Positions 1,176 to 24,543 of a stretch of DNA of 28,145 nt are shown here, piece after piece. Position 1 is the stretch's first letter; each line of letters begins with the position of its first letter. The stretch covers positions 281,049 through 309,193 of the forward strand of contig CAMPET010000050.1 in NCBI GenBank assembly GCA_946803715.1, given 5' to 3'. The DNA comes from Beroe ovata (Eukaryota > Ctenophora > Nuda > Beroida > Beroidae). A program made the translations under genes and the position numbers. The notes beneath the pieces were generated by a model. That model was not told the origin of the DNA, made no database searches, and was given only the letters and a program-made list of their open reading frames with translations.

Positions 1176-4100
1176 ATGTCAAAGTTTCTGAGTGGCGCCG
1201 CATTCCGGTCTGGCTCCCGGAAGAAGAGTTCACGGAAACTCACGCTCCCCTCGAGCCCTGAGGTTCTTCTTGACACCGGCTTCAGAGACGATGACTCGCC
1301 TCAGGTAAACTCAGCTCCTCCACACAGCTCGATACAGGATACATGTTTCCTCAAATACCAAGTTGTAGTTTTCTCCTATTAGTGTTATCTTATCTGTCGC
1401 GCAATTTCAATTGAATCCTGCGCACCGTTCTGAAATTCAACGCGCGACAAAGTCAGGGAAAGCAGCTTTTATCGGGTGNGCCCTGAGGTTCTTCTTGACA
1501 CCGGCTTCAGAGACGATGACTCACCTCAGGTAAACTCAGCTCCTCCACACAGCTCGCTACAGGATACATATACCTCAGATACCAAGTTGTAGTTTTCTCC
1601 TATTAGTGTTATCTTATCTGTCGCGCAATTTCAATTGAATCCTGCGCACCGTTCTGAAATTCATAACGCGCGACAAACTCAGGGATGCCCCAGTGACACT
1701 ATGATTTATGTTAAAGGTACCTATCTGTGTAATGTACCTCTAATCAGTCAAGTTATAGTCATCATGGTCAAGACTGAGCTTGAATTCGTCTCATCATGTT
1801 ATGATACCACCCATTACCAAGAAGGAAAGAACCATGTTACGAAGCTCAATTAGGTCCAATCACTTGCTCAAGTAAATTGCTACTCGAAAATTAATTAGAT
1901 AAACAGTTAGTTGGATCATTCCCGCTAATTGGATGATATTCGGGAATTGATTACTTCCTGTAATTAACCTCAGGTCCTATTAATAAAGATAATCTTTCCA
2001 TCTATACAATTTAGTTTTTCACTGCCATTTTGTGGAATTCGGTATCCAATCGGTATGTTTTGTCTGTCATGTTTGTGTGACCAACTCCAAAACTACTCTA
2101 TCATGATATTGGGATATTTGGGTGGTGTCTTGACATAGCAGTTTTCCCCCCTTTTCGAAATTTCTTATTCCCTTCCTCATTTCAGACATTCAGTTTGGTC
2201 AACAAACGTATGGGGAAGAAAGTTTTCTTCCGGTTCAGCAAAGAAAAGTCGCTGTTTTTCCTGGCGTTCACGAACCCTATCCGCCGATTCTGCATCCGAC
2301 TGATCTGTACGCAGTGGTTCGACCACTTCATCATTTCGATAATTCTGATAAACTGTGTCCTGTTAGCGGCCAACTATGAGGATAACAATGTCGAGTGAGT
2401 GCTCTTGTTCCTCATTCCAACTAGTCCCCATTCCTCGTGATATCCTCAACATCAATCCTCATTCCTCATCACTCCTCATTTCAACCCCCAGTGTTACCAA
2501 GCTTCACATCATGCATTCGACCAGCCATCGCTCAACCTTCACCCACACAGTCATTATAAAGGCCGGTTTGAAATATATACTTTTCAATTGATCACCATTC
2601 AATAATCTCACCACCTGGCCAGTCCTCATTCCTCACCCCTCTCACCCCAATCCTCACCTGACTCCTCACCCGTTCAGGTACGCATTTGCCGTGGTCTACA
2701 CCGTGGAGATGATTCTCAAGGTCTTGGCTCGGGGTTTTGTTTTACATAAACACGCGTATTTGCGTGACCCTTGGAATCGATTAGATTTTGTTGTTGTTAT
2801 GTTCGGGTGAGTGTTGCTATGGTAACATCATTTCCCATATCATGATTCCCATTTCCCATTTGTGCAGCTGCTATATACGCTGAAATCACCTCGAGACATT
2901 TTCTGTCGAAAACAAAACCATTTTTGCAAATTGCTGATGTTTGCTTCCCCTATTTCAGATATTTAACATTAGTGGAGCAATTAAAACGCTTCTCATTCAT
3001 TAAAGCTCTAAGAGTGTTACGGTCGTTAAGAACGATAACAGTAGTACCAGGTCAGTACAACCACAAAACTTTCATAAAACCCATTTTCAGGTATTTAACT
3101 CTTGTGGAAGAATTAAAAAAATTGTCATTTATAAAAGCGTTGAGGGTGTTACGATCATTGCGGACAATAACAGTTGTCCCCGGTAAGTCCATGATAATCG
3201 TCACGCTAGCTGATGTATAGCCGCTACAGCAAACTCGCTATAACACCGACACCAGATGGACTCTCTGTATACTGTGTAGAACTGACACGCCGATGTTCCA
3301 TCGGCAATCGGCATGTATCGCTCGAGTCTCTCTGTGTCTCATTGTGTCTCCTTGTGACGCAGGTGTGTTCTCCGAGCAGTGTCTCAGTGAGCCGTTGTCT
3401 TCATCACCCTGTGCCTCAGAGACTGAGTGAGCTCCGTTATAGCGGTCATGAGTCCAATAGACTGTAATGTATTCATGATAGTCCGGGGCTGTGTTGGGAC
3501 GTGGAGTAGTGGTCATGGTATTTGGTCACTAGGTAGTCTGCTCACTTATCATAGACACTGGCGCCGAGTCGCTGTACAGTGTACACTGTCCAGTGGACAT
3601 AGGTCTCGTATAGTGACTCTAGTGAGTCTATACTATAGAGTCTCCATGACATTGTCATTGTGTCAAGTTCCGACATATACTGCAGTATGATGAGTGGTCG
3701 ATCAAGGGTGGTCATATTCTGTAATAGCCAGATTCCCAGCAGTCATGGTCAGCAGGTGTTTGTCAGCAAATTATTGGGCCGTCTGGAGGAACATTGCGCT
3801 ATACCTGTCATATCTGTCGCATGATGTACAGTATCAATTGATGAATGATATCCCCCTCTATTACACCCTACCGATCCACACTCTTTCCCTATAGGGCCCT
3901 ACTTGAACCCCTCTTTTCCCCCACTCTCCCTCTATCCCCAAATAGTAACCCCTGTTTTCCCCCCTCAGGGTTGCGGATAATGGTAAACTCGTTACTAAAA
4001 TCACTGAAGAACCTGTCAGACGTTATGCTCCTGACTATATTCTTCCTGGCGGTGTTTGCCATTATCGGGCTGCAGCTGTTTATGGGCAACCTCAAGAACC

Positions 4101-7100
4101 GGTGTATCACGGAGCCCGACAACAAGGACTCGCTCTTGTGGTGGAATCTCACAGTTGCCGGGGAAAAGTTGACGGGAGCGGATCTTGTCGAGAAGGATCT
4201 GTATGTTGACAACGAGGACTTCTGGCACACAAACGATGATGACGAGCCTATTATTTGTGGGAAGGAGGGATCACCGTGAGTATATAATAATGGGAGTGGT
4301 GTCACCTGATTGTATATGATATTGACACCAGGCGTCAATATTGACATATTATGTGTCTTGACCTCCCTCATTTGCAGTGGTACGCGACAGTGTCCCCTAG
4401 GGACGTACTGTATCCAGACGAATATCAACCCGAATTCCGGTTACACCAACTTTGACCACTTCGGTTACGCCATGCTGACGTGTGCCCAACTGATCACACT
4501 CGACTTCTGGGAGGATGTGTATGGGAAGGTATGTTTCTGTCAATGCGCTCATTGCGATATTCATGCGCTCTGAAACAATTGCAATGCTTTAATCATTCCT
4601 CTTCGTTTAGGTGTTAGGGTCCTGTGGATCTTATTACATCGTCTACTTCCTTTTCATTATCTTCTTCGGGTCGTTCTACCTCATCAACTTGGTCCTTGCT
4701 GTAGTTGCCATCTCATACGAGCAAGAAGTCCTATCTCCGCAAGAAGAAAAGGTAATTCGGTGATCTCTCATTCCCATTTTTCTGCATCCTATTCTGAAAA
4801 TGTCGTGAAATTCTCGCGAACTCCCCTCTCTCCCAATTTCATACACTTCCTCCACATAATTCTTACTAACCCCCTCCCTCCCTCCCCATAGACTGGTCTC
4901 CCGAAACTCGACGATGACGGAGACGAGTGTAGTTTTGTGGAAGAAGGTGACGAAGTGGGTGAGGGTGGTGCAGCTGGTGAGAACCATGTACAGAACCACC
5001 TCGGCCAGGGCGTGATAGCACACCCCCCGCCCAAACAGAGTTTCTGCAGCGTGCTCATGAGCAGGTGTTGCTGTTGTTGCTGTTGCTGTGGAGATGAACC
5101 AGATTCGCGGTCAACTGTGGTCGTGGATCCCGAAAACGGGACCATGATCACCGCTCTGCCCCCTGAAATCCCGGAATCGTGCTGCGACAAGTTCATGGAC
5201 GTGTGGTCGTGGTTTAGGTCGCACATCAGGAGCTTCATCTACAGTTTCTGGTTTGAGAACGGCATCATGTTGTGCATCGTAGTGAACACGCTATGTCTCG
5301 CCCTCGATTCCCCAAGTATCAGCGACGAATTCGACTACGTGCTCTCCAAGATCAATGACGTGAGTAATGAGTATCATGACGTGTAGCAATTCAACTCATA
5401 GCCATCCTTTGCCGCGATACTGATACGATTTTGTTCACTGTCCGCTGCGATTTTGTACATTTTCGCAGCTTCGGTGCCGCAAGTTTCTTGACCCTTTAAC
5501 CGTGATGAATATTTACCCTTGATCAACCCCTCCCTCCCTCTTTAGTGTCTGACGTGGATATTTACAACTGAGCTGGTCATCAAGTTAGTGGGCCTCCTCC
5601 CTACAGAGTTCTGGAAAACCAAGTGGAACATTTTCGATACTATCATCGTCATCGTCTCGCTTGTGGAACTCAACTTGGGGACGAGTAGCTCCTTCAATGT
5701 GTCCGGTCTACGGTCACTCAGAGTGGTAAGTTGGGCTTGTTTTTCAGTGTCTGTGTGTTGTTTGCCGGTGTTTCTGGGGGATTGGACTGATATACTCATA
5801 TCTATCGTTTTCAGTTGAGGGTATTCAGATTAGCCAAGTCGTGGAGCACCATGAAAGCTCTCATTGACATCATTGCTGAGTCCATATCCGGTCTTGTCTA
5901 TCTGTCCATCATTTTGGGCGTGGTCATCTATACGCTATCCGTTATCGGAATGAACTTGTTCATGCCGCGGTATGCGGAATATTACGGAGAAGACATGATC
6001 CGGTGGAATTACCAGGACTTCAAGCATTCCTTCGTCCTACTCTTCAGAATACTCTGTGGAGAGTGGATAGAGCTGCTTTATGAAACACTCGATGCTACCG
6101 ACAAGCTACTCTGGCCAGTGATTTTCTATCTAGGAGCTCTGGTTCTGGGAAATTTCCTTGTTCTTAACCTGTTCCTTGCCCTGCTGCTCAATGCGTTTGG
6201 GGAGGAGTCCATCAAGGAGAAGAGTGGGGGAGGATCCGACGCCAACTCGACCAAGATATCGTTGTCAGTGAAGCTGAAGAACAAGCTGTTTAACATCAGG
6301 AAGAAGAAGCATAAGCTTGCATCTGAGATCCGGATGTCATCACTTGCTCTAAGCCCAGCTGAACAGATGAAGAGCGCTTGCCACCTTAGGAGCAAACCTA
6401 ACGGAAACCCTGCTGATGTTATGGATGGAGCTAACAACAATAATAATAACAACAACAATAACAACAACAATCGGGCTGACCATGATCATGACGCTGACGA
6501 GTGTAAGTTGTCTCACGCCCCTGATCCCCTCTCTGCCTGTCTCACCCTCCTCATCTCACCCTCCCAATCCTCACCCTCCCTCCCTCTCCTCTCCCTACAC
6601 CCTGAACCCCTGAACACCTCCCTCTCTCACGCCCCCAATATCTATACCCCCCTCTCTCAGATATGTCCAGTATCGATGATCATGAGGGTCACGACAAGTA
6701 CAGCTGTGACGACTGTTGTCAATGCTGCATGATCTGCTGTCGACCGTTCTGCGTTTGCTGTTCCAGGTTCCGGGCTGCTGTTCGTCGTGTGGTTGAGCAC
6801 CGCGCGTTCGAGTGGACCATCCTCTTCCTCATCATGGCATCGAGTCTGACCCTGGCGTTCGAGGATATCACTCTCGAGAAGAGTCCAGTTCGGAAGGAGA
6901 TAGTGGAGACGCTCAACATGTTCTATGTAGTGGTCTTCACTATCGAGATGTGTCTCAAGCTCTTTGCATTTGGTGTCGTCACCTACTTTGAGTCAGCGTG
7001 GCACTGGATCGATTCTCTGGTTGTTGCGGTAAGTCAGTTCCCATACTACCTCACCCCACATCTCTGATCTATCTCACCACATCAGCTCACCCCTTACTTC

Positions 7101-9490
7101 ACCAAGTGATATACCCTCACCCCGTCTCCAGATCTCCATCGTGAGCATTGTTATCCGTAATGCGGGTGTCAGTGGACTGAAAGCTATCCGAGCCCTGAGG
7201 GCGTTGCGTCCACTCCGAGCTATATCGCAGTGGGAGGGAATGCGACTATCAGTGAACGCTCTCATCTCCTCCATCCCCTCATTCGGCAATGTGTCCCTTG
7301 TCTGTCTGGTTCTGTGGCTGGTTTTCTGGTGAGTATGGATAAGTACAGCTGGTTACCACCACTACTCATTGAACATTGAGTGGCGTGGTATCAATAGCAG
7401 CTGTTTGGAATATTTCAACTGATAACACACCGAACCTTCAGTATATTGGGAGTTCAATTTTTCGGCAAGAAGTTCTACAAGTGCATGAAGGATGGGAACA
7501 AATTGAGTTACGATGAAATACAGAACAAGACGCAGTGCATTCAGCTGTATGGTGAACTCGCTTGGCAAAACTCCAAAATCAACTTTGACAATACGATCAT
7601 GGCATTCTTTGCCCTTTACCAAGTGGTTCGTATCTGACACACGGATGAGTTTTTCTAGTCACGGTGTGTTTTTCCCATGAGCGCTAACATTCGTCCGATT
7701 CCAGGCCACCTTTGAGGGCTGGATGGAAGTGATGGAGGACGCTGTGGACTCAACAAAGATCGACGAGCAGCCCAGATTCGAGAACACTTTCGTCGCTTAT
7801 GTCTTTTTCCTCATATTCATCTTTGTTGGCTCATTTTTCACTCTCAATCTTCTGGTTGGAGTCATTATCGACAACTTCAATCGGTTGAAGAAAGAGGTAA
7901 GTGACAGCTCTATTTTATATGCGGCTATCAGTCGGTATTATTCTGCATATTGAGATAACTCTGTAGCCATGATGTTGTACTGAACCAACCTCTCCATCAG
8001 TACGAAGAGAAAGGTCAGCTTGGTGTTCTCCTGACTCCCGCACAGCGCAGATGGATGTCAACATTCAGAAAGATGGCTAAAACAAAGCCCATTCGGATGG
8101 TCACGCGTCCGACTAACAAGTTCATGAAGTTTTGTTACGATATGTCCGAGAATCAGAAATTCGAGGTTGTCATCACCATTATCATCCTGTTGAACATGGT
8201 TCAAATGGCCATGGAACACGATAGTGCGTCCGACGAGTTCACGTATGCAATGGCCATCGCAAACTATATCTTCACCGTCATTTACACGCTGGAAGCTCTC
8301 CTCAAGATCATTGGAACGCGGAAGTTCTATTTCTACAAGTCTTGGAACATATTTGACTTTGTGATCGTTGTGTTCGCATGGCTGGGCATAGCCATGGACA
8401 ACATCATTCCCAACTCCGTCATAGACCCTTCGATACTTCGTAGTTTCCGTGTCTTCAGGGTGGCCAGGATCTTGCGAATCATCCAGATGGCTAAGGGTAT
8501 CAGACGACTCTTGTACACACTCATATGTTCGCTGCCAGCCCTCATCAACATAGGGACACTTCTCTTACTTATCATTTACATTTATGCTGTTGTTGGAGTA
8601 GCTATGTTTGGGTATGTCAGAAGACAGGGTATTCTTAATGATCAGGTGAGTTCCTCTCTCCTTCCGTTAGCTGATTCCAACAACCCCAAATCCAATATAC
8701 CGTACCTCATTGACCCATTCTCCCGTCATCGCAGGTTAACTTCGAGCAAACGCCGGCGGCGATTATCCTGATGACACGGCTCGCCACCTCTGCCGGTTGG
8801 AATGACGTCCTGGACGCCATCATGGTACAGCCGCCAGACTGCGACCGATACCTCTACGAGTCAGTCGGTCAATCCGGCGACTGTGGCTTCAAGGAGTTCG
8901 CCATCGCCTACTTTTCATCATTCGTCCTCATTGCCTTCCTAATCATGATTAACATGTACATCGCCGTTATTCTTGACAACTTTAGCGAGGCACAACAAGC
9001 CGATGAAATCGGCATAGATGAAGACGACATCAATCTCTTCTATGAGAAATGGAAGGTCTTCGATCCTAAAGCGACACAATTTCTCAATGTCAGTAAACTA
9101 CGTGATTTGGTAGGACAGTTGGCTCAGCCGCTGGGCATCCCAGAGGTCACTGAGGACGATATTTTACAGTTAGACATCCCTCTCTACCCCTCTGATAGGG
9201 CGCACTGCATCGATGTCCTGCAAGCCCTCATTTCGAGAACTCTGGGCCCTAATAACAATACAGATGAATTTGAAATGATAAAAGAACTAATGGCGGAAAG
9301 TTTCCGGGCGGCTTTCCCCACCTTAGCGGCAGAAGTGGTAGAAACCACGACAAAACAGCGGCTGAGGGAGATCAGGGCGGCCATTGTCCTCCAGAAAGCC
9401 TTCAGGAGGTTTAAGAACTATAAGCGCAATGAGGCGCTAGAAGGGGCAAATCAAAAAGGGGTATCCTCGCCTCATGTGGCTAAAGTTTAA
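1176..9490 (+). CDS. Nav2: NaV2-type four-domain voltage-gated sodium (cation) channel, complete
   Basis: This is a plasma-membrane voltage-gated cation channel alpha subunit. Exons: 1176-1304, 2186-2394, 2678-2806, then 2959-3050 or 3091-3182, 3969-4275, 4378-4528, 4611-4751, 4892-5359, 5546-5725, 5815-6502, 6661-7028, 7132-7328, 7442-7625, 7705-7896, 8001-8645, 8735-9490. Phases agree throughout and give about 1611 aa. The ATG is preceded by an in-frame TGA at 1170. Four S1-S6 repeats with Arg-rich S4 helices are visible. Pore-loop residues are Asp331 (LDFW), Glu685 (CGEW), Glu1085 (TFEGW) and Ala1380 (TSAGW), i.e. DEEA. DEEA marks NaV2/DSC1-like channels; NaV1 has DEKA. The III-IV linker reads GVLLT where NaV1 has IFMT. 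The C-terminus carries an EF-hand-like region and an IQ motif (VLQKAFRRF, near residue 1578). The I-II and II-III linkers are Cys-rich, and the latter also has 13 Asn. Splice sites are inferred; the 6503 and 7626 donors are the least certain. Confidence 0.95.
1255..1686 (+). repeat. Same 0.2 kb segment twice across an N (exon 1 end and intron 1)
   Basis: Bases 1255-1460 and 1480-1686 are the same sequence with a few differences, separated by a short unique tail and an N at 1479. The second copy starts directly after the N and repeats the last part of exon 1 with its GTAAAC donor but no acceptor. This fits two overlapping contig ends from different haplotypes that were not merged, so intron 1 is probably shorter in the real genome. 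Confidence 0.8.
2959..3050 (+). other. Alternative exon 4a of the channel (domain I S3-S4, Gln form)
   Basis: This 92-nt exon has acceptor TTTCAG ending at 2958 and donor GTCAGT at 3051. It begins with the third base of Gly156 and ends with the first base of the following Gly. It encodes [11 protein letters not shown] and then an S4 segment with [10 protein letters not shown]. It is one of two adjacent exons of equal length and phase with the same domain role. Splicing 4a to 4b would shift the frame, so only one can be used per working transcript. Confidence 0.9.
3091..3182 (+). other. Alternative exon 4b of the channel (domain I S3-S4, Glu form)
   Basis: This 92-nt exon has acceptor TTTTCAG ending at 3090 and a strong donor GTAAGT at 3183. 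It encodes [11 protein letters not shown] and the same S4 as exon 4a. The protein differs at only three linker positions (Q/E163, R/K166, F/L167), while most synonymous sites differ, so this is an old duplication under strong protein constraint and not an allele or an assembly repeat. The gap between the two exons is 40 nt. Confidence 0.9.
3183..3968 (+). other. Intron 4 of the channel, no additional gene seen
   Basis: This is the 786-nt intron that follows the alternative exon pair. Its open frames have no recognisable domains and no channel-like residues. Its size stands out among introns mostly near 100 nt, which is common beside alternatively used exons and may give room for splicing control elements. 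I did not identify a complementary docking/selector pair by eye. Confidence 0.5.
5066..5089 (+). other. Eight consecutive Cys codons in the channel's I-II linker
   Basis: Mixed TGT/TGC codons encode Cys445-452 in the cytoplasmic linker before domain II. A second pair of Cys lies shortly before S1 (ESCCDKF). Family NaV channels often have a short Cys motif before domain II; eight in a row is longer than I would expect. Membrane anchoring by palmitoylation or metal binding are possible roles, both inferred. Confidence 0.85.
6433..6471 (+). repeat. Poly-Asn (13 AAY codons) in the channel's II-III linker
   Basis: An AAC/AAT trinucleotide run encodes Asn809-821 in the disordered II-III linker, followed by an acidic/His stretch (ADHDHDADE). 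The mixed codons suggest either an older repeat or selection for the residue. It is likely length-variable between individuals. Confidence 0.9.
6699..6767 (+). other. Cys-rich cluster before domain III of the channel
   Basis: The end of the II-III linker, immediately before domain III S1, reads as spaced Cys pairs ([13 protein letters not shown], then [10 protein letters not shown]), eleven Cys in about two dozen residues. Vertebrate NaV1 channels have a shorter Cys motif at this site. Spacing in CC pairs is compatible with acylation or a metal cluster, but no known zinc-finger spacing fits. Confidence 0.85.
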
Positions 9491-14733: not shown

Positions 14734-17568
<2,835 letters not shown>

Positions 17569-21662: not shown

Positions 21663-24543
21663 NACACACACACACACACACACATACACGCACACACATG
21701 CATACACACGCACGCACATACACACACACGCACACACACACTACACACACGAACATCAGACCCCATACTCCAAGTGACTAATAGGGAACAGTGCATAGCT
21801 CTCCTACACTAATTGGCAATCAGTGTACAAATAATGGCTTGTACTGATGATTACAAGCTTTAAAATCCCTTGCATACCCAGTATACAAGTAAATATAGAA
21901 ATGTAGGCACTACTTATTGTTTCGCTCGCGTTAACGCTGGGTTTTATGATGCGGTTCTCACGTAAGATACGTCACACTCCTTCTTTTTCTTGTCGTGACA
22001 ATAACCCAGGTTCTAATCAATCAATGACATTCATTTCTCATTCCAGCGGTGAAATAACGTCATGTGACTATGTACAGTGTATAGTGTGTATACACGATAT
22101 TGTGTGAATCAATGTTACACTGCCAAATTCCTATTCACTACGATGATGTTTCCTCTGCTTTGCGTTCTCTTCACACCTTCTCTTACTTCAATCTGTGATG
22201 TTAATCAATGTCTCCCTGTCCCCAACTTTGAGCTGGTGTCTACGTGGGATTTCCGACACTCTGGAAATTTCGATACATCGTCTATCCGGGCAGTTCAATT
22301 AAGCGGTACAGCACAGGAAAAATGCGAGCTATCTTTCAAGAGCATGAATCAGCGGAGTGATAAGTATGGGGAGATAAACATCACCGTAAACGCGGATACC
22401 ATGACCATGTGGAGTGACTATAGCGAGTACTCTGTGACGAGTGTCATGAGGAAAAACAATTTCAACATCAGTGACAATCACATTGATTTTACAATCGAGT
22501 TCCTCAACCAAGATGAACTTTTCCTGAAGGTGTACTCCAGCACACAAACTATGGGCAGTTTTTCATACGGTGATTTAGACCAGACAGATAATGAGATCCC
22601 CAAACTAACATTCAGGAAGTTGCTAGCCGGAGAGAAGTTGTCGAAAAACGACCTCATTGGGAGCAGGACTATCAGATCCCAGGGTTGTCATAGTGACGTT
22701 ACAGTTCACCTGTGTCCTTGTCGCTCTCCAGTCATTGCCTCGCTCGATCTCACAGGAACAGAGTTGAGATGCACAGCACACAGTCTCGATCCGATAACTA
22801 TATCATGGGACAGCGGGGGAAACCCGGCAACTGAAAACCCGAGCGGGTCTCGGGCTTTCACCTCCCGCCTCCAGAACGTTACCGAACCCGGTACATACTC
22901 CTGTGTGGCGGAAACAGCTGCTGGACAGCGGGTGAGCAGGCAGTTCGTGCTGGAAAGCGAGGAGTCCGAGGCGGCGACTCGCGGCGGCGATCGTTGGAAA
23001 AAAGTGACAGTTCCCGTGATAGTAGTGGTGATTGTGGTAGTGGCAGGTGGTAGTATTGCTGCTGTCTGGTGGCTGAAACGGCGACACCAGAGGAAAGTTG
23101 AGAGAGTGGGGAATTTGCCACAACCCTCATTCAGGATGATATCAGAACCCCCGCCGGGAGTTGGAATGGAGCCAACCCTTGCCAGTGGGATACAGCCCAC
23201 TTTCCAGGATATAGCTCCGCCTGAGTCCACACCGACACCGATCTATGCTGCACTGAGCTTGGGGAGGAGCCCTCAGCCCGAGGAGAGCATCTACAACAGA
23301 CTGGATCCAAACACCATGACAACAAGTCGAGATGGCTGGAGAACACTCCAAATGCAGGGTGCGTGGGGGACGATGCCGAGAAACCGGCATGTGCTACTTA
23401 GCAACCAGCATGCTATGCCTGGGAACAACCCTGTTGCATCACCAGCCATGTTCCACACCTTGCCCCATAATGCCAGCCATTATCTCCGTGATGAAAGCCA
23501 TGGCATGGCCCCGCATCAATCAACATTTACTAGCATATCTGGAAATTCCATGTCAAGCAATAATCCTCCTACATTCAAACCACCCCAGCCTCCGTCAATA
23601 AGATTTGCCTTGGCGCCCTCTAACAGAGACTCAGGTGTATATCAGGAGACACTTGATCTAAACCTGTAGTGAGAAAAAATGCTACCATCTATTATATAAA
23701 AAAATGAAAACAGAGCAATCATAGTTGAATCCATACCAAGAAGTTGCGCATTTGATATCTTTGATGGAAGTTTGTTGTGCAATGTGTTATGTTTGAATAA
23801 TGGATATAAATTTCTATGTATCTCATTTACTACCTATTAAATCCAAGTGAATGTTTTGATCTCTTTGTCATTTGCAATTCTGAGTTATTGCCTTGGAAAA
23901 ACATTGTTTAATTTTGAATAAACTTACAGAAAGGAATTTGGCAACTATTGAAACAATAGGACAACAATGAAGCAACAGCAACACAACAATTCGACAGAGG
24001 TTCTGATCTATATTCCCATGATAACCTACCTGAATATTTCTTGGCATTTGTCAAGTGTAAGGCAATCAAATACATCTGCAAGTACAAAATAAGGTGTACT
24101 GTTAGAGCAGTATCCCGCTTCTGATGCCCCAAATGCGACCTCAATGTAGTTCCTGATGACTTGGTTTCCCAGCATCACCTGAATTATTATATGGAAATAA
24201 ACATAAGGAATGATAATAAAGGGATTAATGATGGGCATGAAGATACAGAAAGCATGACCCTCTATTTGATGAAAACAGATCAGTAGGGTTTAGGAAGAAT
24301 CTGGACCTCACTTAATGAGATTTCTGAATATATACGTATTCTATCTGTTCAAAGATATCTGCTGTCTTTGTAAAGTCTTACTTTGCTGAAGAGAGCTTTA
24401 CGGAAAGCTACATCCAGGGAAGTCTTTTTCTCTTGATCAGATCCAACACTGTGCTCCAAAAGATGGCACACATCCCCAACACTATTCACATTATCAGAGA
24501 GAGCAGCTATATACTGCTTACATAACTCCCGAAAACCAGACAT
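17811..24543 (-). CDS. THOC1: THO complex subunit 1 (HPR1/p84 family), apparently lacking the death domain
   Basis: THOC1 is a core subunit of the nuclear THO/TREX complex, which couples transcription to mRNP assembly and export. Minus-strand exons are 24543-24382, 24178-24030, 20076-19909, 19567-19420, 19312-18839, 18571-18386, 18308-18147 and 18059-17811. They join in frame to about 565 aa. Family landmarks in order are TPYFVLADVFDCLTLDKC, NDLIRRCSKSLNTLFCGRIQ, SGLNLQSLFN, LWSIQDYFRNP, YFAKFLTSERLL, DSNFRRHILVQ, LFQYLTADVKFK, SETPPDGQTF, WSAWKNEGCPS, LWNICPDN and FFEDAIEQLEPD with WRSLRLLARQS. The vertebrate protein is about 657 aa and ends in a death domain; here the frame stops soon after the LARQS region. 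The 19419 donor (GTTTTT) is the weakest call. The largest intron (20077-24029) holds another gene on the + strand and an assembly duplication. Confidence 0.93.
19586..19880. repeat. GT microsatellites in a THOC1 intron, with an N
   Basis: GT-rich arrays occupy about 19586-19628 and 19823-19888, with an N at 19822. Between them is a loose tandem of TGGTGTCA units (about 19651-19760). The splice sites on either side (19568 acceptor, 19908 donor of THOC1 on the minus strand) are intact. Confidence 0.85.
20079..21480. repeat. 0.66 kb segment present twice across an N in a THOC1 intron
   Basis: 20079-20737 and 20813-21480 are two versions of one sequence with substitutions and small indels (for example about 30 nt extra near 20851-20895 in the second). 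The second starts immediately after the N at 20812, at the base next to the THOC1 exon boundary. It most likely represents overlapping haplotype contigs, so the real intron would be shorter by about 0.7 kb. Confidence 0.8.
21622..21750. repeat. CA microsatellite with an N
   Basis: A long CACACA run (with CATACACG variants toward the 3' end) is interrupted by an N at 21663. Simple-sequence open frames across it are not genes. Confidence 0.95.
22143..23669 (+). CDS. Single-pass Ig-domain receptor with a cytoplasmic ITAM, intronless, nested in THOC1
   Basis: This is a predicted type I membrane protein of 508 aa; I do not recognise an orthologue. The start is chosen at the second ATG cluster because MMFPLLCVLF then forms a signal peptide; the frame stays open upstream to 22077. 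An N-terminal region of about 180 residues with several Cys and N-glycosylation sites matches no domain I know. An Ig-like domain follows (about 195-280; Cys210, ISW Trp222, GTYSC Cys254). A Val-rich transmembrane helix (288-311) ends in a KRRHQRK stop-transfer. The roughly 190-residue tail has YAAL at Tyr368 and YNRL at Tyr384 with 12 residues between, which fits the ITAM consensus YxxL-x(6-12)-YxxL. It also has PPQPP motifs and a C-terminal VYQETL. In ITAM receptors the paired phosphotyrosines recruit Syk-type tandem SH2 kinases; that role is inferred here. Confidence 0.88.
   Translation: MMFPLLCVLFTPSLTSICDVNQCLPVPNFELVSTWDFRHSGNFDTSSIRAVQLSGTAQEKCELSFKSMNQRSDKYGEINITVNADTMTMWSDYSEYSVTSVMRKNNFNISDNHIDFTIEFLNQDELFLKVYSSTQTMGSFSYGDLDQTDNEIPKLTFRKLLAGEKLSKNDLIGSRTIRSQGCHSDVTVHLCPCRSPVIASLDLTGTELRCTAHSLDPITISWDSGGNPATENPSGSRAFTSRLQNVTEPGTYSCVAETAAGQRVSRQFVLESEESEAATRGGDRWKKVTVPVIVVVIVVVAGGSIAAVWWLKRRHQRKVERVGNLPQPSFRMISEPPPGVGMEPTLASGIQPTFQDIAPPESTPTPIYAALSLGRSPQPEESIYNRLDPNTMTTSRDGWRTLQMQGAWGTMPRNRHVLLSNQHAMPGNNPVASPAMFHTLPHNASHYLRDESHGMAPHQSTFTSISGNSMSSNNPPTFKPPQPPSIRFALAPSNRDSGVYQETLDLNL
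23917..23922 (+). terminator. Poly(A) signal AATAAA for the Ig/ITAM gene
   Basis: AATAAA occurs about 250 nt after the stop codon, still inside the THOC1 intron and roughly 110 nt short of the next THOC1 exon (24030-24178). This gives the nested gene a complete transcription unit within the intron. Confidence 0.55.

Follow-up and report, generated by a model that had tools for sequence, protein, structure and literature searches.

The window, that is, the whole stretch of 28,145 nt analysed here, comes from a 77.8-Mb ctenophore assembly (contig C50, 281049-309193). It contains a gene that we call NaV2a (positions 1176-9490), with 16 coding exons and a predicted product of 1611 aa, and further downstream lie zinc-finger exons, an open frame for an Ig-domain protein and a transporter exon (Table 1). 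The filter residues of NaV2a read DEEA, where NaV1 channels have DEKA, and its C-terminus carries an IQ-like segment. A motif search recovered DEEA in NaV2a, in its paralogue NaV2b and in the four closest relatives (6/6), as expected from the original prediction of a NaV2-type filter. The nearest proteins are models from Bolinopsis microptera ("isoform X8", P0001) and Mnemiopsis leidyi (P0002), each 82% identical to NaV2a, together with P0003 (82%) and P0004 (75%). The remaining 116 of the best 120 of 1827 matches have 40-47% identity and include cnidarian, arthropod and deuterostome channels. Judged by the DEEA motif and these similarities, on which the NaV2 assignment is based, the gene is a ctenophore NaV2 channel.

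Table 1. Exons of NaV2a and other features of the window (positions in the window).
Feature	Position	Strand	Remarks
Exon 1	1176..1304	+	Start codon; 63% identity with Bolinopsis P0001 at the N-terminus
Exon 2	2186..2394	+	Domain I S1
Exon 3	2678..2806	+	Domain I S2 to S3; constitutive partner upstream of A/B; donor score 11.4
Exon A (exon 4A)	2959..3050	+	S3-S4 linker and S4; Gln at exon position 7 (Q163); acceptor 13.5, donor 7.7 bits
Spacer, 40 nt	3051..3090	+	Best branch-point candidate: an A at 24 nt from the exon A donor
Exon B (exon 4B)	3091..3182	+	S3-S4 linker and S4; Glu at exon position 7 (E163); acceptor 9.9, donor 11.0 bits
Intron after B, 786 nt	3183..3968	+	No further exon copy found
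Exon 5	3969..4275	+	Domain I S4-S5, S5; constitutive partner downstream of A/B
Exon 6	4378..4528	+	Domain I filter Asp (TLDFWED)
Exon 7	4611..4751	+	Domain I S6
Exon 8	4892..5359	+	I-II linker with 8-Cys run; domain II S1
Exon 9	5546..5725	+	Domain II S2-S4
Exon 10	5815..6502	+	Domain II S4-S6, filter Glu; II-III linker
Exon 11	6661..7028	+	II-III linker Cys cluster; domain III S1-S3
Exon 12	7132..7328	+	Domain III S3-S5
Exon 13	7442..7625	+	Domain III S5-P; end placed by comparison with P0001
Exon 14	7705..7896	+	Domain III filter Glu, S6
Exon 15	8001..8645	+	III-IV linker; domain IV S1-S5
Exon 16	8735..9490	+	Domain IV filter Ala, S6, C-terminus with IQ-like motif, stop
Zinc-finger exons	16371..17500		C2H2 type
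Ig-domain protein	22068..23666		533-aa open frame
Transporter exon	26243..26617		Amino-acid transporter (Aa_trans)

The III-IV linker of NaV1 channels carries the motif IFM. At its place NaV2a reads GVLLTPAQ (window 8001-8645), as do the four close relatives, and NaV2b reads GVLLTPGQ. The paralogue NaV2b is a second NaV2 gene, on contig C23 (L026/L027), with 1074 of 1521 aligned residues identical to NaV2a and a matching exon layout from exon 2 to exon 16, while a search for its exon 1 found none. This agrees with a review that, in the parts surveyed, gives two DEEA genes per ctenophore and reports NaV2 channels to be Ca-permeable (PMC5095125). Here and below, statements from cited papers refer to the surveyed parts of their text.

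The assembly also contains two repeats that span single Ns. In the window (1255-1685, N at 1479), the end of exon 1 and the start of its intron are repeated at about 96% identity, probably as unmerged haplotypes at a scaffold join, which would leave a spurious second exon-1 end. In a four-domain channel gene on contig C107, probably a CaV, the domain I voltage-sensor exons occur twice at 90% identity across an N at 4506 (L028 3796-5162). These duplicates have the look of alternative exons, but they probably arose in assembly in the same way.

The exon pair in domain I

Exon 4 of NaV2a is present in two copies, A and B, of 92 nt each, which lie 40 nt apart, have plausible GT/AG splice sites and share a phase, both beginning after codon base 2 and ending after codon base 1. 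Each encodes 30 residues of domain I that start at the end of S3 and include S4. The coordinates, lengths, spacer and splice sites are all as originally predicted, and so is the loss of frame on double inclusion, since the frame stops at codon 189 when A is joined to B; without either exon it likewise stops, at codon 236. The proposal of a mutually exclusive architecture is thus supported at the sequence level by the equal phase, the splice sites and the loss of frame with both exons or neither, and we infer that A and B are used as either/or alternatives. In a splice-site matrix built from 27 other introns of NaV2a and NaV2b, acceptors have a median score of 10.2 bits and donors one of 9.3 bits (range 4.8-12.9), to be compared with the values of the pair in Table 1; the donor of A, GTCAGT, is weaker than the median and lies inside this range.

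Some animals have introns near 40 nt, which makes the steric step less certain. In the two NaV2 genes, the other introns measure 79-1715 nt (n=29, a count that includes the two flanking the pair, taken as if only A were used), and the spacer is about half as long as the smallest of them. A survey of human exon pairs took a distance below 50 nt as its criterion for steric exclusion and found it in 57 clusters (9%) (PMC5740500); the branch-point-like A of the spacer, with its 24 nt to the donor of A, falls under this limit. The short spacer would probably exclude the joining of A to B sterically. As to other signals, GCATG and YCAY showed no clear excess in the flanking introns and spacer, each count being reached by at least 27 of 200 shuffles, and long-range pairing of the spacer was unremarkable (45/100 and 24/100 shuffles equally good). 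The pairing of intron 3 with the downstream intron, one of three pairing tests, was equalled by 2 of 100 shuffles. No further copies of exon 4 were found in NaV2a or NaV2b, and no other exon of NaV2a has a close duplicate, except exon 1 at the N join and leaving aside weak matches between domains.

Residue differences and the vertebrate site

From A to B three residues change, Q163E, R166K and F167L (exon positions 7, 10 and 11), and only Q163E alters the charge. Of 174 proteins, 129, mostly from insects and birds, align over the 30-residue segment without gaps; we left out 15 that need gaps, 26 that cover it in part and 4 that show no match. The Gln/Glu position of the pair corresponds to column 7 of this alignment. 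Glu predominates in this column (77 proteins), followed by Asp (36), Asn (11) and Gln (2), and Ser, Lys and Leu occur once each. The two proteins with Gln are the Bolinopsis model and one ant protein (P0115). Among the ungapped bird segments, all 5 of SCN1A/SCN2A have Asn and all 14 of SCN4A have Asp; elsewhere we find Asn in Nematostella P0007, Ser in P0004 and Ala in NaV2b. Given this variety, a neutral residue at column 7 is not by itself a sign of an exon pair.

The vertebrate NaV1 exons 5N/5A (6N/6A) resemble A/B in being tandem copies of the 30-residue domain I S3-S4 segment separated by a short intron. The vertebrate N exons, with a neutral residue (S/N), precede the A exons, with Asp, across that intron (PMC5811987), and the alternative segment of SCN5A also has 30 aa (PMC13011093). 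In both systems, then, the neutral copy lies upstream, the acidic one downstream, and the swap falls at column 7 (PMC5811987, PMC13011093). The vertebrate pair differs in belonging to NaV1 genes, whereas the ctenophore pair belongs to a NaV2 gene (DEEA), with a spacer of 40 nt. The predicted equivalence to the vertebrate site is supported by the ungapped alignment with bird SCN1A/SCN4A proteins, by which, rather than by vertebrate exon boundaries, the match was judged, and by the length of the SCN5A segment. A rough post hoc estimate, from three differences in an 11-residue linker, puts a coincidence at column 7 at about 2%. The ctenophore pair repeats the vertebrate segment, swapped column, chemistry and order, an analogy that is suggestive, but no proof, of a shared function. 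In our view the most telling feature of the locus, and one absent from the original prediction, is this single exchange of a neutral for an acidic residue, which matches 5N/5A in both column and exon order.

Age, origin and alternative readings

Exons A and B are identical at 67 of 92 nt (73%) and 27 of 30 aa. Their 30 codons comprise 11 identical, 16 synonymous and 3 non-synonymous pairs (NG86 pS 0.77, pN 0.08). Residues 12-30, which include S4, are the same in both, and over the last 18 codons (the S4 half) 15.0 of 15.6 synonymous sites differ, against 0 of 38.4 non-synonymous ones. The codons differ for 16 of the 27 shared residues (59%), where independent codon choice would give 18.8; between NaV2a and NaV2b the figure is 580/993 (58%), counted outside exon 4 and leaving out Met and Trp. 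The flanking introns of A and B have no mutual similarity by blastn. By these measures the duplication is old, at synonymous saturation, and both copies are kept under purifying selection, as had been proposed from the identity of S4; the saturated synonymous sites also exclude recent gene conversion between the copies.

This divergence bears on three readings in which the pair would have little or no functional meaning. That two haplotypes were assembled side by side has a precedent in the repeats at single-N joins described above (96% and 90%). Yet there is no N between 1480 and 12316, the differences between A and B are mostly synonymous, and their flanks lack similarity; with 73% identity in the pair against 90-96% in the probable artefacts, we rejected this explanation, whose probability is practically negligible. 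It is also improbable that one of the exons is dead or nearly unused, as the weaker donor of A could suggest and as happened to the SCN1A N exons, which have decayed in many mammals (PMC5811987). Both frames are open with all S4 charges retained, and the S4 half has no amino-acid change despite synonymous saturation. Finally, the duplication could be real and the choice neutral, the three differences being without effect and the copies serving as redundant templates. It fits this reading that no more than 3 of the 30 residues differ and that two of the changes are conservative; however, redundant copies would not be expected to last to synonymous saturation, and column 7 is Gln or Glu in 3 of the 4 close relatives and Ser in the fourth. 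We consider neutral choice unlikely.

Another alternative concerns the origin of the pair, for which either a very deep origin or convergence had been put forward. If the pair predated the split of ctenophores and bilaterians, 5N/5A and A/B would be orthologous and lost elsewhere, in line with the same 30-residue segment, the neutral-first order and the swap at column 7; nor does synonymous saturation set an upper limit on age. However, the whole 224-nt stretch matches only two places in the 77.8-Mb assembly, its own locus and a single NaV2b exon. NaV2b carries one copy of exon 4, and no relic of a second was detected. Of the 30 residues, A and B share 27, A and NaV2b 23, and B and NaV2b 24, whereas both A and B share 13 with the bird Asn (SCN1A) segment and 14 with the bird Asp (SCN4A) segment. 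A does not group with the Asn nor B with the Asp segment, in a comparison where the bird segments come from different genes and not from one pair. Homogenisation within the gene could in principle hide such a grouping, but recent conversion is excluded by the saturated synonymous sites. The vertebrate duplication has moreover been dated to early vertebrate evolution (PMC5811987). Shared ancestry is thus very unlikely, and the convergence half of the original prediction is the one favoured. From the single-copy NaV2b and from the far closer similarity of A and B to each other than to vertebrate segments, we strongly infer that the A/B pair arose independently of 5N/5A, which is much likelier than shared ancestry.

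Other ctenophores provide some indications of the same pair. Exon positions 5-11 read VEQLKRF in A, VEELKKL in B and IDALKDL in NaV2b; the relatives have IDQLKDL (Bolinopsis), VEELKNL (Mnemiopsis), VEELKEL (P0003) and FESLKEL (P0004), with Gln at column 7 in Bolinopsis, Glu in Mnemiopsis and P0003, and Ser in P0004. Over exon 4, B shares 29 of 30 residues with Mnemiopsis and with P0003. The Bolinopsis protein is overall nearest to that of Mnemiopsis (90.0%), and in exon 4 the two differ at 4 of 30 residues against 1.0 expected (P 0.019), Mnemiopsis and P0003 differing at 1. This suggests that the X8 model may show the other exon copy, and the pair is likely, though not proven, to be common to other ctenophores. 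The case for Bolinopsis is weakened by the domain IV loop, which also has 4 differences (of 21) between Bolinopsis and Mnemiopsis, and by exon 4 of P0001 itself, which is no nearer to A (26/30) than to B (26/30) and has 27/30 in common with NaV2b. Scans of viral contigs and genome contigs revealed no relative. Searches for fragments gave 3 matches with a 73-aa query and 51 with a 156-aa query. The 24 of these 54 viewed in full include fragments of exons 2, 3 and 5 close to NaV2a, but exon 4 of this gene is not among them. The remaining 30 (156-aa query) were compared as exon-4 segments only, where they reach exon 4.

Proposed role and known systems

We propose that A and B arose when, long ago, the 92-nt exon that encodes the S3-S4 linker and S4 of domain I was duplicated in tandem in a ctenophore NaV2 gene. 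Some 24 nt separate the donor of A from the likely branch point of B, which would sterically block the joining of A to B, and transcripts with both exons or neither would be frameshifted and stop early. Each splice form would retain all S4 charges, and the choice of exon would swap one extracellular charge, Gln163 (A) for Glu163 (B), along with Arg/Lys and Phe/Leu. This swap would probably tune the domain I voltage sensor, in its availability or its recovery after depolarisation, and leave the pore unchanged, with the A and B isoforms expected in different cells or stages. As a whole, i.e., an old tandem duplication with mutually exclusive splicing, tuning of the domain I sensor and an origin independent of vertebrates, we hold this proposal to be highly probable. 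The gating effect, which we deem probable, is drawn by analogy with NaV1 5N/5A, where the N exon raises availability after brief depolarisations in the literature surveyed; the analogy is weakened by the Ca permeability of NaV2 and by its III-IV linker without IFM.

Exon choice in voltage-sensor segments of four-domain channels is already known from vertebrate domain I 5N/5A, and from the Drosophila sodium channel and vertebrate SCN8A (18N/18A), where, to go by the text surveyed, the pairs lie in domain III S3-S4 instead of domain I. The 18N exon of SCN8A carries a stop codon, whereas A and B both encode a full S4. Convergent tandem exons are likewise known in the NaV/CaV superfamily of human, fly and nematode, as repeated independent duplications like that of A/B; these cases come from vertebrates, arthropods, nematodes and, for one event, molluscs, whereas A/B is from a ctenophore, at a site used by vertebrates (PMC9741552). 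Invertebrate four-domain channels also include the NALCN exon 15/31 and CaV3 exon 12a/12b choices, which alter selectivity at the pore or turret, and not the voltage sensor as in A/B (PMC6259924, PMC4436565). What appears new is the domain I S3-S4 exon pair in a ctenophore NaV2 gene. A search of titles and opening lines of abstracts, which reached few subscription papers, found no earlier mention of a pair of this kind, be it in ctenophores or in NaV2 genes, and the surveyed parts of PMC6259924, PMC8527503, PMC3404004, PMC9741552, PMC13011093, PMC5811987, PMC5740500, PMC5295241, PMC7017565, PMC4436565, PMC5095125 and PMC5435141 hold no account of one.

In the literature surveyed, it is the NaV1 genes of vertebrates that choose between exons for the domain I voltage sensor. 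If the proposal is true, four-domain channels would have in this linker position a favoured site of tuning, one that can be reached independently in animals with nervous systems of possibly separate origin. A broader reading, to which we give somewhat less than even chances, is that the pair, with its neutral/acidic swap and its exon order as in vertebrates, is ctenophore-wide and represents an independently evolved splice switch of the vertebrate-brain type, tuning a Ca-permeable NaV2 by cell type or stage in a nervous system that may itself be of separate origin. With isoforms that differ at three neighbouring residues, the locus would offer a natural experiment on nearly a single charge.

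The NaV2 proteins show several other features. P0003 and P0004 begin with another N-terminus (MSSNRPGSSG... and MTSNLPGSSG..., respectively), which was not found between 5 kb before the window and window position 2300 and is possibly an alternative first exon. The I-II linker (window 4892-5359) has a Cys run of 2-8 across the six NaV2 sequences compared. A Cys cluster in the II-III linker, with at most 3 residues varying (window 6661-7028), is common to all six including the paralogue; it could possibly serve palmitoylation or metal binding. The same linker carries a poly-Asn run (window 5815-6502) of 13 residues in NaV2a; in the five others, the longest Asn stretches measure 2-6 residues.
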